From the NCBI GenBank assembly GCA_900323505.1, contig OOIN01000004.1, positions 1,860,001 through 1,924,000 of the forward strand: DNA of 64,000 nucleotides. The letters are read 5' to 3'. A program made the position numbers and the translations under genes. Within the stretch, counting starts at the first letter, position 1. Each line of letters opens with the position of its first letter. The stretch is from Ustilago trichophora (lineage: Eukaryota > Basidiomycota > Ustilaginomycetes > Ustilaginales > Ustilaginaceae). The notes under the pieces are model-generated. The model was not told the origin of the DNA and did not search any database. It saw only the letters and a program-made list of their open reading frames with translations. Shown piece by piece: positions 55,705-64,000 of the stretch.

Positions 55705-55714
55705 TGTCACCAGC
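55362..55714. other. divergent intergenic region with CAY trinucleotide repeat
   Basis: 353 bp between divergent MRH4 and the NTPase-nuclease gene. It contains an AAG-rich stretch at about 55494-55520, one ACGCGT box at 55604-55609 and the long CAC/CAT microsatellite at 55646-55704. Confidence 0.65.
55646..55704. repeat. (ACC)n(ATC)n compound microsatellite
   Basis: Four to five ACC units followed by about fourteen ATC units, ending ten bases before the ATG at 55715. It gives a poly-His peptide in another frame that is not credible as a gene. Confidence 0.93.
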
Positions 55715-58700
55715 ATGGAGTCTCAGCATCCAACGCGCCCCATCAAAGGCACCGACTTCGAGTCTCTCTGGCAGCATCTTGTACGTCTCATTGACAAGAC
55801 AGATCCTAGTGCCAGTGCCATTCAGCCCGACCGCAAAGATGCGTTGAGTCAAGACTTGACAAATCTAATCTCGACTCTGTTCTGCGTGGCTGGTTGGGCG
55901 GTGCGACGCTTCTATCCGCTGCGCGAGGTGCACAAACGAGCGATTCGAACGTACATTGAGGATGCTTTCATCACTCTGGATTCGCTCCAATCGCATCAAT
56001 CGTCCATACTCCATCAGTCTCGCCCCACAACGCCACCCACAATTGCAGCAACCGCTTCCAACCTGACCCCTACGCGTCGACAAGCCATTCAAGTTGCGAG
56101 CAACGCACGCCTTGTCAATCCAGCTGTCTGGTCCCGCTTGTCCAAAATCTTGCAAATGATCAACGATATCCGCATAAGCCTACTGCAGGCCGAGCAGGTC
56201 GATGCCGAGAACAATGAATACGAGCGCGAAGAGCTCTTTTTTCAAATCAACGCATTTCTCTTGGGAGTCAAACGCGTGCATCGACGCCTCGTCCATCTCT
56301 TTCCAAACCTTTCCACCGTCTCATTCATACCAGAAGACTGCGGTCATGCCGTCGTTGACGCGCTCGCCCGTCTCGAGCAATCGAATGATGTCACCCAAGA
56401 TGAGGCGCTTGCCCATATCCTCCTTCGGCTCCCAGCCTCCAACTCAAGTCCGGATCGATCCGAGGACAATCCGGAACTCGAGCGCCACTTTGCTCAACAG
56501 CTTCAGAGAACCTATCGAGGCGATGCACCGGCCCGTTTCCTTCGATTCGTCGACAATGTGCACAGACATTTTACCAAGTCGGTCGAGGGTGTGCCTGTCT
56601 TTGACTCGTACTTGAAGGGCACCTCGATCGTACAGTCAAGCGGCACTGGCAAGACACGCTTGGTTCTCGAGCTTGCCAAAAGAGCTCCTCTTCTCTACGT
56701 CTGTGTACGTCGCAAAGCGCCTCATCAGCGTTCCAGCGTTAAGAACGGCTTCCCTCTCGCAGAGCAAAACCTATTTGAATTCTTTCGCGATGCCACTTCA
56801 GCCACTAGGGCTTCTTGTGATCTTCAGGTGGCTGCCTTTATTGGTGCCTGGTTCGAGACTCTTAGCTCGAAACTCAATGAATACACCACAGCTCAGGACA
56901 AGTACCTCTTCCTCGTCCAACTCAATGACTTTGGTGGTCCAGGCTACAGTCAACGCCAACCCTTTTTCAACACAGTGCTTGTCGCTGCCCGCCTCAAATT
57001 AGTCCAGACTACAACGACATCTTCATCTACTGGCCAAACGTGCGTCTTCAGCGCTTGCCTTGATACCGCCGTGTCTGACCTTAGCCATCAACTCGGCCCG
57101 GTTCGAGACTGGCTATGGGACCATCACAAAGTCGAATATCAATCTCTTGGTATCGAACGCCCCCCCGTCTTCGTTGCATTTGATGAATGCGTCGACCTCA
57201 TTGTGCCCAAGTCTGGCCGCAGTGCAGACGATCATCAACTCAACAGCCTTCGTCGAGCCTGGCACCACATGCTGCAACTCGAGAAGAAGCAGGACAACGT
57301 CACCTTCTGGCTGCTCCTTCTCAGTACCAACACAGGCGCAGCTCAACTTATCGAACCCCAGGATCTTCAAGCCTCAGCGCGGGCACCAGAAAAGCAGCCC
57401 TTGCCCGTTTTCATCGGACTGGGATTTGACGTTCTGCGAAGCGATCGGCCTAGGCTGGATAGCCCCAATGACGTTTCCAATGTACGGCACTTGCGAAGCT
57501 ACGGTCGTCCTCTGTGGGGTTCGCTGCCGCTGGAAACATTCTGGGAGGTGGCCGAGTTCAAGCTGCTTGGCGCAAAAGAATTTAACGCCAATAATGCTGT
57601 GCTGTGCTACAATCTTTTGGCCTCGCGACTGGCGCTGCGGCTTGTCCCAACCCATCATGGCGACTCGGCCCTCTTTGGCGAGCAAAAGTCGCTGATTACC
57701 CGATCCATTGATCGACATATGCGCATTCTCCACCAAGTCATTCAACATACTAGTTTGGCCATCGTCACGCCGTCAGAACCTGTGCTGGCCGTCGGCGCTG
57801 CAAACATCATGCTCGCCGCTCCGAGCAGAGACGGCGAATCCGACCCCATGCCGGCTTACGCCAAGATCATCGACACTTTCACCACGCAGTGCCTTCCCAC
57901 GCTGGGCGCAGACCTTCTTAGAGGGACGCATGGCGAATTTATGGCACGTTTCGCCCTCATGGCTGCCTGGGATGCAGTCAAACTTCCTCTGTTGCAAAGC
58001 GAGAAATCTGGTCCCGCTTCCGTTGTTGCTCGGCTAGTACTATTGCAATCTTTCTTGAAACAACTTGCAACACTTGACCAACAAGGCAGCTCTGTAATTA
58101 ACGATGCCATCCATGCCGTTTGCCAACAGGTCCGCAATCGGCTTTTCCGTTCCAGCCAACCAAATATTAGCGCTTATAACCGTAACACCGATGGCAACAG
58201 CAATAGCGACGAGGATGTGGGCGCATGGCTCAACTTCACCCACTTTGACACACTCCCCCATGGGATCAGCTGCATCTCGCCCGACTATCTGTGGTACTGT
58301 TGGAAGCGCGGCGTTGCTATTCAGATGGCTCACGGCCAACCGGGTGTCGACGGTATCATTCCGATCTTTGTAGGTCGACTCTCGCAAAAGTTCCGAGCGC
58401 CTGATCAGAGCCACTTGCAGGCTGATGAGGTTGACGCAATCGACGAGCGCCAGGTCGCTCGACAAATGACCTACATTGCATGGGAGGCTAAATACAGAGA
58501 CCAGGCTATGAGCCGTGCAGAGGCTTCTGACCAAGCCAGGAGTGGACCGACCTTGCTGCTCGCAGCATGCGATGCCGATTTGCATGCCCAGATGGATGCC
58601 GCTGATAGCAGCACGCCTTTGAGACAGCCGCTTACGCGTGCCAGTCTTGTTACCGTGATTGCTGATCTGGGCACAGAACAGGCTTTCTCCGATGGCAGAA

Positions 58701-59038
58701 ATCTTCAGCCACGAGCTGACTTGGTAACGCAAAGGGATGGCAGTCATACATTCCTACGTCTTTGGATTCGGGGCATCAAAGATCCGCAGGTGTACCCATG
58801 CTTTGATGTCCTGGGCATTCGGGCTAAGTTGACGGCACTCTTCAAGACCGTGACAGACACACCTTCGTACGAAGAGGACAACAAGATTCCTTCGATCATG
58901 TGGAATTCGGAAGCGCATCCCGAGTCTCAATCACATGTCAGCGATGGGCCTCCGCCATCCTCGTTGCCCTGGTCATCTTGGTCCGGACCTCCAGCCGACG
59001 GCGAAAGCGATTACGACGGGGAGCCAATGGATCTCTGA
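55715..59038 (+). CDS. P-loop NTPase fused to a putative PD-(D/E)xK nuclease, Crinkler-RHS-like
   Basis: 1107 aa from ATG 55715 in a single exon. No signal peptide or membrane segment is seen. A helical N-terminal part (1 to about 295) precedes a Walker A loop VQSSGTGKTRLVLELAK (K313) and a Walker B strand VFVAFDECVDL (D490-E491). WLLLLSTNTGAAQL follows, a sensor-1-like strand. Downstream SEPVLAVGAANIMLAA and LLRGTHGEFMARFALM appear to close the ATPase module. Near the C-terminus GVDGIIPIFVG (D879) and MTYIAWEAKYRD (E924-x-K926) fit the catalytic D...ExK of restriction-endonuclease-fold nucleases. NTPase plus REase fold is the layout described for Crinkler-RHS-type effectors and conflict proteins; the usual ubiquitin-like header is not obvious. 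Function (host effector, transposon-derived or genome conflict) is unknown. The D to E spacing is long, so the nuclease call is tentative. Confidence 0.72.
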   Translation: MESQHPTRPIKGTDFESLWQHLVRLIDKTDPSASAIQPDRKDALSQDLTNLISTLFCVAGWAVRRFYPLREVHKRAIRTYIEDAFITLDSLQSHQSSILHQSRPTTPPTIAATASNLTPTRRQAIQVASNARLVNPAVWSRLSKILQMINDIRISLLQAEQVDAENNEYEREELFFQINAFLLGVKRVHRRLVHLFPNLSTVSFIPEDCGHAVVDALARLEQSNDVTQDEALAHILLRLPASNSSPDRSEDNPELERHFAQQLQRTYRGDAPARFLRFVDNVHRHFTKSVEGVPVFDSYLKGTSIVQSSGTGKTRLVLELAKRAPLLYVCVRRKAPHQRSSVKNGFPLAEQNLFEFFRDATSATRASCDLQVAAFIGAWFETLSSKLNEYTTAQDKYLFLVQLNDFGGPGYSQRQPFFNTVLVAARLKLVQTTTTSSSTGQTCVFSACLDTAVSDLSHQLGPVRDWLWDHHKVEYQSLGIERPPVFVAFDECVDLIVPKSGRSADDHQLNSLRRAWHHMLQLEKKQDNVTFWLLLLSTNTGAAQLIEPQDLQASARAPEKQPLPVFIGLGFDVLRSDRPRLDSPNDVSNVRHLRSYGRPLWGSLPLETFWEVAEFKLLGAKEFNANNAVLCYNLLASRLALRLVPTHHGDSALFGEQKSLITRSIDRHMRILHQVIQHTSLAIVTPSEPVLAVGAANIMLAAPSRDGESDPMPAYAKIIDTFTTQCLPTLGADLLRGTHGEFMARFALMAAWDAVKLPLLQSEKSGPASVVARLVLLQSFLKQLATLDQQGSSVINDAIHAVCQQVRNRLFRSSQPNISAYNRNTDGNSNSDEDVGAWLNFTHFDTLPHGISCISPDYLWYCWKRGVAIQMAHGQPGVDGIIPIFVGRLSQKFRAPDQSHLQADEVDAIDERQVARQMTYIAWEAKYRDQAMSRAEASDQARSGPTLLLAACDADLHAQMDAADSSTPLRQPLTRASLVTVIADLGTEQAFSDGRNLQPRADLVTQRDGSHTFLRLWIRGIKDPQVYPCFDVLGIRAKLTALFKTVTDTPSYEEDNKIPSIMWNSEAHPESQSHVSDGPPPSSLPWSSWSGPPADGESDYDGEPMDL

Positions 59039-59350
59039 CAGAAACCTCAAAGCAAGCATAATATCTGCACCTTTCAATGGCTGTTGGCGCGGCGGATGAT
59101 TCGAGGATTGGGTGCTGCAGAGCGCTTGGTTATGAGTGCTAGCTTCACTGGAGCATGTAGTGTGCGGCTGCTCACGTGAGCACTCAGCAAGCTGCAAAAG
59201 AGAGATGTGGCTGAAGCATGTGCACTCAGTCAAGTCTCCTCACTCTTGTCAACACAGCCTAGCCCTAGGCCGTGGTGCGCCAGCCGCGGGAGAAGCACCA
59301 GTGCGTCCCGCCAAAATGGCCAACCTGACCGCGCTCCGTCAGCCTGAGGG

Positions 59351-59937
59351 ACGCGTCAAAAAACACTGGTGCAGTGCCGCAACGGAAAATTCTTTTTCCT
59401 TGGCTGGGCAGCGGACAGGTGGGTGACGGACGCGTCAAAATTCAGGGAAATTGCTAGCGTGACAGACACGCTCACCCACACTGCTCTAGTGCCTGACAGA
59501 CCAATCCAACTTTTTGGCTGAGCGGCCCACTCCTCCAGCAGACTCACTGAGCTGTCTGTCACTTCACTGACTGGCAGACAGGATGAGTGACGGACATGAC
59601 TGACTGACTGACAAGCTTGGTGACGTGACAGACGTGACTGACTGGCAGACGTGATTGAGGAAGTGATTCCTGCTGCAAGCACACACAGCAGTCAGGTGTG
59701 TGACGGCAACCAATGTGTACCCATGGACTGCAGCAGACGGACAAAACTCAAATACAAACATTGACAGACAATGTCAAAAATCATGCCTGCCAAAAATTCT
59801 GATCAGAATGCTGGCCTCAAAATTGAGAGCGCAATGTGTCCTTGGAGCAAGGAGCGTGACGCGTCTGGGTATGAGTAGACGGACTCTCATTGCACCGCAC
59901 ACAATTTGACTCTGCGCTGACTGACTGACAGACGCGT
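59351..59937 (+). promoter_or_regulatory. four ACGCGT (MCB-like) boxes upstream of the helicase gene
   Basis: ACGCGT at 59351-59356, 59430-59435, 59859-59864 and 59932-59937. Three are followed by CAAA, and two extend to nearly the same ACGCGTCAAATTTCAG-like word. ACGCGT is the Mlu I cell-cycle box bound by MBF in fungi to drive G1/S genes. They lie 0.8-1.4 kb from the helicase ATG and may simply belong to a repeat unit. Confidence 0.4.
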
Positions 59938-60316
59938 CAAATTTCAGTGAATTCAACTTGGCAGCATGTACGTCCTTCAACAGCACTCTGAACAGCGGCT
60001 GGTCCGTCAAGTCATGGCTCCTTTGTCTGGAAGCGTGTGAAGGACAATGTTGAGACAACAGTAAATGACTCTCACGACTGGAACCAACAAAGCTAACTCA
60101 GATGCTCCCAAGTGCGGACCTTTGCTTTGAGTTTGCTTTGTGTTTGACAGACAGCTTTTCTCACAGCTTGACTTTGACGTACTTGTCCTTTGTCCGCCAT
60201 GCACCCACACCCTTGTCTGTCCTTCACACGCTGTACACCTTTGTCTGTTGTCCATTGTCCGTCACACACCACAGATCTTTGTCTGCTTGTTGCTCACTGC
60301 ACAGCTTTGTCTGTCC

Positions 60317-60453
60317 GTCACTGAAACAAAATTTTCCACACCGCTCACAGCTCTGCGCTATCCTTTCTTGACTTGATTGCTTTACGGTCACTGAAACAAA
60401 ATTTTCCACACCGCTCACAGCTCTGCACTATCCTTTCTTGACTTGTTTGCTTT
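60317..60453 (+). repeat. 70-bp-period tandem duplication
   Basis: Copies at 60317-60383 and 60387-60453 start GTCACTGAAACAAAATTTTC and differ at only about two positions (GCGCTA/GCACTA, GATT/GTTT). They sit in the helicase 5' region. Confidence 0.9.
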
Positions 60454-60633
60454 GCAGTGTGTGTCTGCATGAGCGTGAGTGCAAGTGAAACCATCTTACC
60501 TTTGTACGTTTCCCTCTTGGACACATTGAGTGCTTCAAGTGGCTGTTGCTGTAACCCGTTACGCTTGCTGGAATCCTTGACCGTGTACGTCTGACTGTGC
60601 TTGCTATGTGCGCTGCTTGTCTCCTCTGAAGCA

Positions 60634-60639
60634 TATATA
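60634..60639 (+). promoter_or_regulatory. TATA-like box of the helicase gene
   Basis: TATATA within GCATATATAC, 114 bp before the ATG at 60753. Confidence 0.4.
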
Positions 60640-60752
60640 CTGTGCCTTTCTGACCGTTGCTGACCGTCATTGCTCATCAATCCAACAATCCATTCCAGCT
60701 TCTCTCTACCGTACTCTACCACTTTTATCCACCGCCAGCAAATTCTTCAACC

Positions 60753-63700
60753 ATGTCTCAGCAATCTTTCCATCCTGATGACAGCGTACTTGCTGCTGAA
60801 CTTGTTGATGCAGGCATCGACACAATTGACGCAGTCAGTGATACGGACAGGTATGTTTGGGCAATCATCACCACGCATCATCAATGATCAGCAGCTGACA
60901 TCACTATTTGCATTTTTTGAATTCAGTCACGCTCTCCCTGCTGCCAACCAAGCCGCAAATCAAGAAACCGCCATTTCCACTCCAGTGGATCCTCAGCACA
61001 CCGCTCAGCTGGCACGCTTCAACTTACGCTTGGTGGACCATCCCCGCATCCTGCTCTGCACCCTGGACAGCTGTTGTCCTCAATTGCCGCTCATCCCAGA
61101 CTTCAAGCACGTCACGGCTCACATCAAGAAGGTCCACAAGAAGCCGCTGGTTGGGTCTGCCAAGGAGATGCTGCGTAGCCTCCTTGATGAACTGGATGTA
61201 CCGTCTCCTGGCACGGTCTGCATCAACAAGGATCTTCTGCCAGAGCGCATGATTCCTGAGCTGGGTGAGCTCTTCCAAGGCTACCGCTGCAACTTGTGCT
61301 CCTATGCCGTCCAAGCCAAGTCTGCTTTCTACGAGCATCTGCGTGGGCATCCTGATGCTAAAGGCAGAGCATCGTACACCCATCCTGTTCCCATGCAGAA
61401 GTTGCACGAGTGCGGCAAGAAGATCTGCTACCTTCACGTCTGCAATCAAGATCTGGATCCCACACCGCCTCCTGCCATTCTCACCACCGCTCTGGATGCA
61501 AGCACCATCAGCGCCAATATCAAGACAAAGGTGGATGCCTTCCTCAAGCAGAATGAAGATTGCCTCCGTGAAGCAGACCTGCTCAAGCCAGGCATTCAGC
61601 CTGAATCTGCCAGCGGCAACATTGGTCCTTGGGCCAAGCAGCTGGGTTGGCATGCGTACTGGGCTGGCAAGCCTATTGTGGCCATTGGCGCACTCAGCAA
61701 GTCAAAAAAGGTGTGGCCTGGTGCTCATATAGACTTTGTCCATTGGGTATTGGTCATGACACAGCAAGCAGCCGCAACATGGATGACGGCTTTCCTCAAG
61801 ACTGGCAGGCAGGTGCAACAGACTTTCCGTGCCTACAGTCCTGAACCAAGCCAGCCGTACAACCTCAGCCTACCAACAGTCAAGAAACGTGCGGACATGT
61901 GGGCCTTTTTACTTGCTCTGCTTATCCATGCGGTCTTTGACGGTGTCTCTTTTGGCTATTACGGTGACAGTGACCAGACTGAGCATCTTGGTCTCAGCGC
62001 ACACCTGGACTCTGTACTGCAAGATCTGCATGATCTTTACTACGGTGCGGATGCAGACATTGATCCGCTCACTGATGAAGATCTGGCAAGCAAGGCAGTG
62101 CCGCTCCTCCTCCAACTCTCTCACCTCTTGGTCACGCAACAGCCAGAGGTGTATGGTGAGAATGACAAGCTTGCTTTGGTACGGCTGTTCCTCCACCTCT
62201 GCGTCAGCGCAGATGGCACTCCCATTCCAGTCAATGCCGCTACGTCCATCATTGCCAGCTTGGAGTTCTGCTGCCGTGCAGTGCTCTGGCAGTGGCTGTT
62301 GGATCCAGAAGATGGTGTGCTCATTGAGCGCTCTGCTGAGGAGATTGCTGCCGAGGTTGATCTACAGATGAAGCGCTATCTGTACAGCACCAGCAGCTCC
62401 GCCAGCTCATACCTACAATCCCTTCACCGGTATGGCACAGTACTTGCGCAAGATGATGGCACCAACTTCCACTTTTCCTGGCAGCAAGATCTCAAGAGCG
62501 TCAAGTTTGGAACAGAGACCATCCAAGTGGACCGTCTCCAAGCTCTGATGCATGGTGCGCAAAAGCGGGCAGAAGCTTTGCTACGTCAGCTCTGCCTTTT
62601 GCCAGAGGATGCATCACTTGCGCTCAACCTGAAGCACATTCTGGATGATCACCGCAACATGCAACCAGACTTCAGCTTTGTGGCCGCTTCTCCGGAGCTG
62701 CAGAGCATCAGCAGTGTTCTCTGCCGTGCTGCTGCTGGTAACGTACCTGCTGCGCAACCCCTCATGGATCCATACTCTGATGAGTTGGAGTTCGATGCAG
62801 ATGCTGCCAATGCGTACTTCAGCATGCACAATGAATTCACCAAGCTGCTTGCGGTGCTCATTGAGCTTGGTAGCGGTCTGCCTGCAAGAGGTACAGAGCT
62901 GCTCCAATTGCAGCACACCAACACGCTTGTTGGTCCACGCAACCTCTTTGTGCATGATGGCAGTGTCTTCACCGCTCTGCCCAGCAAGAAAGGCACTGGA
63001 CGTCAAAAGGTGATTCCACGCTTCCTGCCATACCCAGTGGGATGCATGGTGGTCTTTTACGTAGCTCAGGTGGTGCCGTTTGTCCATCTCCTACATAATG
63101 CAGTGCTGCAGCCCCGTGCGGCCAGCTCTATGCTCTTGGTGGACCATCACGGCAATGCATGGGAGACAAATGCCGTCACCAAGATGCTGCAAGCACTCTG
63201 CCAGGAGCACATCAGCTCTATCACGGCTGGCCTCAACATGCGCACTTGGCGGCAACTGGCAGTGAGCATTGACCGCAAGCTCATCCGTCCGAGGTCCATG
63301 ACTGCAGAAGAGGTGTTGGACAGCGCTCACGATCTTCAAGCTGGACATTCAACACGGACTGCAGAGCAGCACTATGGCCTGGATGCAAGCATGCTGCATC
63401 AGCTCACGCAAGAGAGCATGGATGTCATGTTGGAAGTGTCAGAGCGGTGGCATGCATTCTGGGGTATGCCATCCCGCTTTGAAGAGGACGTCAAGCCATA
63501 TGACCACCTCATGGCAGGAAAGGCAGCAGGAGATGACTGCAAGGCAGTATCTTCACTGAAGCGGCAGCTGGATGCTTTGCAGGAGGACATGCGGTGTGTC
63601 AAGCAAAGGCTGGAGCATCCAATTGAAGTTGCTCCACCAAGCGCTACAAGTGCGGTGCCTGCTGCCCCCATTTCACGCTCTGCTGTGCTAGCAGAACCAG

Positions 63701-64000
63701 TCAGCAATGCACTCTTCAAGGTGACCGGCAGCCACCGCACCAAGACACTGGAGCAGGCCTATGCGCTCAATGCCATCTATGCCAAGGAGACACCACTGAT
63801 CATTGTCATGGCCACTGGGTCCGGCAAGTCTGCACTTTTCATGGCACCGCTGCATTGGCTGCCGCCAGCCTCTGTCATTATTGTGGTGGTGCCATTCATT
63901 GCACTCACAGATGATCTGATGGAGCAGTGTCAGTGGGTTGGAATTGTGGCAAGCAAGTGGACAGGCTACCGGAGTGCAGACAGAGTAGAGGGCAGTCAGC
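60753..64000 (+). CDS. telomere-linked RecQ-like helicase with OrsD/C2H2 and tyrosine-recombinase-like domains (3' end beyond window)
   Basis: Exon 1 is 60753-60850 and exon 2 runs from 60927 to the window edge with no stop; the 76-bp GTATGT...TTCAG intron restores phase (AG|T). 1057 codons are visible. Residues 60-180 contain zinc-binding HPRILLCTLDSCCPQLP and a C2H2 finger YRCNLCSYAVQAKSAFYEHL (C154, C157), resembling the OrsD family. Residues about 670-860 show a tyrosine-recombinase signature: R687 (GLPARGTELLQLQ), K720/K721 (PSKKGTGRQKVIPR), R805-T-W-R808, H840 (LQAGHSTRT) and Y849 (EQHYGLD). A coiled coil follows near 910, then Walker A MATGSGKSALF (K1000) and VVVPFIALTDDLMEQC, a RecQ-type start. 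Smut telomeres carry RecQ-like genes (UTAS of U. maydis), so a subtelomeric position is likely. Helicase motifs II-VI lie outside the window. Confidence 0.85.

Follow-up and report, generated by a model that had tools for sequence, protein, structure and literature searches.

A telomere-linked gene at the end of contig C4

The window analysed here is a stretch of 64,000 nucleotides from the smut fungus Ustilago trichophora (contig OOIN01000004.1, hereafter C4, positions 1,860,001-1,924,000; the genome comprises 38.8 Mb in 45 contigs). Its last part holds, on the forward (+) strand like the window features given below for the element and its target, a telomere-linked gene encoding a RecQ-type helicase, which we propose to be the first gene of a mobile element. 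Exon 1 (60753..60850) encodes residues 1-32 and ends after the second base of codon 33. It is followed by a 76-base intron (60851..60926, GTATGT...CAG) inferred from the frame and the splice sites; among four acceptors tried, a single one gives a stop-free frame. Exon 2 (60927..64000) extends beyond the window end to a stop codon at L009:6740-6742 (contig C4 1,925,740-1,925,742), 1.7 kb outside the window, giving a protein of 1637 amino acids. Short tandem repeats, visible as offset matches between copies, lie directly after the gene (L009:6842-7086), and TTAGGG repeats start about 3.0 kb past the stop codon and reach the end of the contig, in agreement with the telomere linkage assigned to this gene by an earlier, sequence-only reading.

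Predicted structure and conservation together make a three-part enzyme the best explanation of this protein: an N-terminal OrsD-like C2H2 DNA-binding part, a putative tyrosine recombinase (YR) and a RecQ helicase. The OrsD-like region (residues ~88-173, 61090..61347), which the sequence-only reading had also named, is weak in the window protein itself (PF12013 E=0.015, below cut-off); 15 of the 22 members of a homologue alignment match OrsD at E<=10, the best at 4.8e-16. The tyrosine-recombinase catalytic domain, delimited by conservation and predicted fold, covers residues ~640-870 (62746..63438). Conservation marks out its candidate active-site residues, namely the box I arginine R687 (62887..62889), within GLPARGTELLQLQ starting at residue 683; E690 (62896-62898); the catalytic lysine candidate K721 (62989..62991, KKGTG at 720); the box II arginine R808 (63250..63252, RTWR at 805); H840 of the AGHS motif at 838 (63346..63348); and the candidate nucleophile Y849 (63373..63375, HYG at 848). 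The Walker A lysine of the RecQ helicase, K1000 (GSGKS, 63826..63828), follows in a domain that continues outside the window. Over the whole exon the helicase families exceed the cut-off (DEAD E=3e-14, Helicase_C E=1e-14), and RecQ5 and RecQ1 are the best PDB sequence matches of the family profile. The residues picked out beforehand (R687, K720/721, R805-R808, H840, Y849 and K1000) thus all lie at these numbers in a single exon, and the helicase assignment stands. The gene is multicopy, with 41 matches to its recombinase segment in the genome. Most copies listed keep a 1692-codon frame; the copy on C30 (L013, ~590,153) is broken into frames of 945 and 746 codons.

Fold and conservation of the predicted recombinase domain

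The assignment to the tyrosine recombinases rests on fold and conservation because sequence profiles gave no recombinase. The predicted structure of residues ~640-870 has the tyrosine-recombinase catalytic-domain fold, as the sequence-only reading would have it; the comparison was made by VIA-align and extends to the families in its candidate set. Within it, XerH/XerD, Cre, lambda Int and type IB topoisomerases share 9-14% identity with the domain. In a 173-column alignment read by eye, R687, E690, K721, R808, H840 and Y849 stand opposite the XerD active-site residues.

Conservation was assessed in 149 proteins, the window protein included, drawn from a collection of 5.8 billion proteins (for one search, from the 120 of 171 matches that were listed). 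Those that carry an organism name come from smuts, other Basidiomycota (Hysterangium, Boletus, Pisolithus, Mycena) and Ascomycota (Botrytis, Parastagonospora, Aspergillus, Verruconis and a lichen). Residue counts use 146 of these proteins, three with over-long envelopes having been dropped, and many of the 146 share just ~25-35% identity. Across them the candidate active-site positions rank among the most conserved of the domain. Among rows with a residue at the position, R687 is arginine in 145/145, E690 is glutamate in 144/145, R808 is arginine in 141/145 (histidine in three, threonine in one), H840 is kept in 144/145 and Y849 in 144/144. The positions suspected beforehand are therefore near-invariant (R687, R808, H840 and Y849 in 141/145 or better) and do not vary freely. 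The lysine had been left as K720 or K721; K721 is kept in 146/146, its neighbour K720 is not conserved. The three proteins with histidine for R808 (P0009, P0014 and P0016 in a 31-protein alignment) include two that also carry cysteine for arginine at 704 and 731, substitutions that look like decay by C-to-T change. The His-Tyr spacing of nine noted earlier holds in 144 of 146 rows (0 and 4 in the other two), and R808 stands 30-58 residues before H840 in 145 of 146 rows, the odd one having 13. No helicase is seen in 36 of the 149 homologues (P0025, P0130 and 34 others); such OrsD-family proteins may be tyrosine recombinases too.

Several observations weigh against this assignment. The first residue of box II varies (S 58, Q 22, R 15, L 12, A 11 of 145), and the RxxR reported earlier for that box, present in the window protein, is no family signature, R808 alone being kept. 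Histidine is frequent at this position in tyrosine recombinases without being required for membership, and type IB topoisomerases have lysine there. H840 and Y849 lie in or beside a low-confidence stretch of the model (predicted local distance difference test, pLDDT, <50 for model residues 614-624; mean 47 in block 611-620). Sequence profiles also miss the relationship. PF00589 (Phage_integrase) was not matched at E<=10, and DUF3435 was not matched, by the window protein, by 10 further homologues or among the 25 listed of 28 families for the 22-member alignment, so the affinity to integrases sought beforehand did not emerge from these models. PHROGs profiles gave no recombinase for seven proteins; one of the 22 alignment members hit the bacterial topoisomerase IB N-terminal domain in Pfam at chance level (E 0.15). 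A PDB search with the single sequence returned two unrelated matches only (E 0.83 and 1.2), and in a PDB profile search the best 60 of 293 rows all hit the helicase part. Aligned by hhalign to XerD (81 sequences), Ngaro, Int, Cre and mixes of these, the YR alignment scored weakly (best P 0.021, reached with a mix; 0.15-0.27 for reversed templates), although the positive control, Ngaro-type against XerD, was detected at P 1.3e-4. When the catalytic domain was aligned to XerD by itself, 56 of 200 block-shuffled templates did as well.

The missing box II histidine and the low model confidence around H840 and Y849 would suit a domain that is catalytically dead or structural, kept for DNA binding by the helicase. 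We consider this improbable, since even across deep divergence 97-100% of rows retain the candidate nucleophile and the charged active-site residues, for which DNA binding alone would give no reason. By its predicted fold and active-site residues, the domain is most likely a tyrosine recombinase.

A fixed proximal end joined at CCT

Upstream of the gene the element has a fixed proximal (centromere-side) end, CCTAGCCCTAGGC, at 59258..59270, recognised by its recurrence as a 13-mer and as the point where homology between copies starts beside unrelated flanks. It contains an inverted repeat, CCTAG-CC-CTAGG. The leader between this end and the gene (59258..60752) includes a two-copy 70-bp tandem repeat at 60317-60453; the gene reads inward, its ATG lying 1495 bases inside the proximal end. 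Element copies were fetched from 22 contig ends, the window's own among them. They agree at >99% over the gene and most of the remaining length; a second class of copies shows 92-96% identity over the first 1.1 kb. In 14/14 other copies with the left side fetched, homology starts at L009:256-259 (window 59258 within two bases) and the flanks differ; these 14 were chosen independently of the end sequence, and none has a trimmed end. A 28-base end pattern (<=2 mismatches) occurs 38 times, against 0 for the control read backwards, and the 13-mer occurs 73 times in the genome, against 1 for a control. Of these 73, 69 lie <=17 kb from the contig end that they face, at 57 ends of 38 contigs; the C22 copy, on a 27.9-kb contig, faces the telomere-bearing end.

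The remaining four comprise one on C6 and three in the middle of the 168-kb contig C43 (70,625-79,920), the latter as ends in + + - orientation around decayed gene pieces, possibly the relic of a former chromosome end or of an end fusion. Several extra 13-mers stand beside paralogues whose recombinase is just 55-71% identical; their distance to the recombinase segment is 3.2-3.3 kb on C3, C10, C14, C27, C28 and C43 and 4.4 kb on C12, compared with 3.2 kb in the window. The end thus outlives the adjoining sequence, as a recognised site would.

The target of the window copy (58400..59257, outside the element on its centromere side) has an unfilled counterpart on C33, in which CAACACAG is followed by CCTGCTATCC instead of CCTAGCCC; the filled CAACACAG-CCTAGCCC thus compares with the unfilled CAACACAG-CCTGCTAT. 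Adjoining the element is an 1109-aa frame with a GTGKTR stretch (55709-59035; AAA_16 E 0.33), whose 3' part and following DNA recur near contig ends of C33, C11, C32, C23 and C37. Altogether there are 36 distinct junctions with many different flanks, L012/L054 and L041/L055 being near-identical pairs. For 14 distinct targets, the shared target of L043 and L060 being entered a single time, an element-free related copy gives the sequence across the joint; unfilled counterparts of L015, L017, L018, L021 and L058 also exist, outside this count. CCT is found at the joint in 12 of the 14 (L009, L011, L019, L026, L031, L043, L044, L046, L048, L050, L056 and L057) and CCC in two (L020 and L047). If the sites are independent and the four bases equally frequent, so that CCT has a chance of 1/64 per site, 12 or more would arise with a probability of ~2e-20. 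For L046 the closest aligned copy (L025, 99%) has CCTG and others TCTG; for L048 the closer copy has CCTG and the farther one, L035, GCTG; for L050 the joint was set at the outer of three repeat units. Two joints, L019 and L043, fall within older copies of this gene, and L046 falls within the element upstream of it, showing that elements were added onto elements.

Ectopic recombination between subtelomeres, with the gene as a passenger in a homogenised block and the boundary as the edge of shared homology, would fit copies >99% identical over most of their length near ends, as well as two junction pairs common to different contigs. Such exchange does not set one exact boundary beside many unrelated sequences and has no need of CCT, and the unfilled sites speak against it; we regard it as very improbable. 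A Helitron was rejected, as insertion between A and T is not what is found at targets with CCT or CCC. Telomere healing alone fails for the proximal end, where CCCTAG is oriented opposite to TTAGGG.

The distal side differs from the proximal one. The distal end was read in 16 copies, and the change from element to TTAGGG falls at 13 different positions among them. The longest, on C30, runs for 14.3 kb before the telomere, so the element measures at least 14.3 kb. The window copy passes straight into telomere repeats, and hence lacks the distal half of its CCT target. Outward of the gene, reading frames resembling TET/JBP 2-oxoglutarate dioxygenases occur at L013:6402-7898 (Tet_JBP E=7e-5) and at L040:2085-3062 (-) (E=0.047), both below cut-off; L013:8072-9151 has no Pfam match and is TET/JBP-like by eye. 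By sequence resemblance these might be cargo or DNA-modification genes. Among open reading frames (ORFs) >=120 codons of the 14.3-kb C30 copy, searched by eye and for three ORFs by Pfam, no reverse transcriptase was noticed, and the YR was the sole joining enzyme to be noticed there.

Copies that differ in hexamer number, break off distally and stack head to tail recall telomeric non-long-terminal-repeat (non-LTR) elements. In a telomeric retroelement the proximal end would be the 3' end, with a (GGGCTA)n tail laid down by target-primed reverse transcription, and the distal truncation would be 5' truncation. The gene would be antisense to such an RNA, and this, together with the missing reverse transcriptase, makes the retroelement hard to credit.

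A proposed end capture at chromosome tips

Fixed end, targets and stacking suggest that the elements spread by site-specific joining onto chromosome ends. Taken as a whole, the observations are probably best explained by end capture or end swap at CCT, driven by the YR of a mobile element with CCTAGCCCTAGG as its proximal end and a telomere as its distal side. The YR would bind the palindromic end CCTAG-CC-CTAGG and recombine it with CCT in chromosomal DNA near an end; a single crossover would then swap everything distal to CCT for element and telomere. One crossover would suffice to replace a chromosome tip, the other side of the element being telomeric, and the reaction may be one-sided. Eroded ends would be healed by telomerase inside the element, and a repeat of the reaction could place a further element on top of them. 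The role of the RecQ part is probably to open the junction or to move it by branch migration. We infer the YR to be the catalyst because it is the sole joining enzyme noticed in the element. The model would explain why the end is fixed, why the target is short, why elements lie at contig ends in the orientation that they have, why no second flank is seen and why elements stack. The idea, put forward from sequence alone, of a mobile or telomere-maintaining element that couples site-specific recombination with unwinding gains support from the fixed end, the CCT targets and the predicted fold.

Some features of the junctions tell against end capture by the YR. What stands in for the unfilled state is a set of related copies, with 87-100% identity across the flank in one comparison and 88-99% in others, rather than the ancestral sites, and the counterpart of L031 is a repeat unit within its own flank. 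Most joints were located by searching for the end itself, so trimmed-end copies would have been missed among them; three bases are a short target for a YR; and neither a second flank nor a reciprocal product was seen, the distal side being telomere in the 16 copies read. The main rival, which we consider unlikely, is capture by microhomology: a linear element with a fixed terminus and a terminal overhang (...CTAGG-3') joined at CCT by host end-joining or break-induced replication, the YR doing something else or only making the fixed end, as telomere resolvases do. The shared stretch is just 3-5 bases, the end is telomere-like (CCCTAG vs CCCTAA) with an extra CCTAGC unit at 5 of 36 joints, and the distal truncations show that broken ends occur. 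Microhomology joining would nonetheless be expected to trim ends, and trimming is absent from the 14 copies whose selection did not depend on the end; CCT is nearly always present (12/14), and the 13-mer is retained beside divergent paralogues.

Telomere-linked RecQ genes have reportedly been known in fungi since the work of Sanchez-Alonso and Guzman in 1998, and are usually read as helper helicases for telomeres. The window gene resembles such helicases (UTASa of Ustilago maydis; tlh of Fusarium, Magnaporthe and fission yeast) in its RecQ core, multiple copies and telomere-adjacent position. The literature found names no recombinase in them, and within the searches made, the fixed end and the CCT target have no precedent. 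For UTASb, one report notes an OrsD domain (PMC10532341), and another states that nothing besides the helicase core was recognised (PMC7473861). A YR domain of these helicases is not described in the literature searched, including the parts available of PMC12857005 and PMC4466345, most subscription journals lying outside that coverage.

Among mobile elements, the Starships of Pezizomycotina, with captain tyrosine recombinases, are described as having an inward YR gene near one end, 2-12 bp direct repeats of the target and cargo (PMC12153272). The window element likewise has its recombinase gene at one end, reading inward; it differs in that no DUF3435 is listed, the size is at least 14.3 kb against ~20-700 kb, a helicase is fused to the YR, the location is a chromosome end and no second flank is seen. 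AcademH and KolobokH use DDE transposases, unlike the window gene with its YR-helicase fusion. These eukaryotic transposons carry a RecQ-type or DEAD helicase and occur in fungi among other hosts, according to PMC3627910 and PMC10799480. Cryptons and Ngaro/DIRS elements are also eukaryotic mobile elements with a YR. PF00589, however, finds Ngaro-type copies and not the window domain, and Ngaro/DIRS differ further in that no reverse transcriptase was noticed in the element. PF00589 has 41 matches elsewhere in the genome (E<=10), including L032, L034, L035 and L036; at four such loci that were read, integrase-like frames overlap or adjoin reverse-transcriptase/RNase H-like frames, are Ngaro-like by eye and form a separate YR family. 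From XerH/XerD, Cre, lambda Int and type IB topoisomerases the window protein is set apart by the lack of significant profile similarity, by a box II without histidine and by fusion to RecQ. Telomeric non-LTR and yeast Y' elements are similarly stacked or truncated at chromosome ends, and Y' carries a helicase (PMC4522978); the window element differs in its YR and its precise end at CCT targets.

It seems to us evenly balanced whether the telomere-linked helicases of fungi, and the OrsD family in general, act as site-specific recombinases driving end-capturing mobile elements at CCT, with an on-board RecQ, so that smut chromosome ends are built and exchanged by programmed site-specific recombination. 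A YR-RecQ fusion is notable in itself, as it unites enzymes that make and migrate Holliday junctions. If the proposal is true, their mode of movement would explain why telomere-linked RecQ genes lie at chromosome ends, subtelomere plasticity in fungi would turn into an enzymatic reaction that can be tested, and a new YR family missed by sequence profiles would become available.
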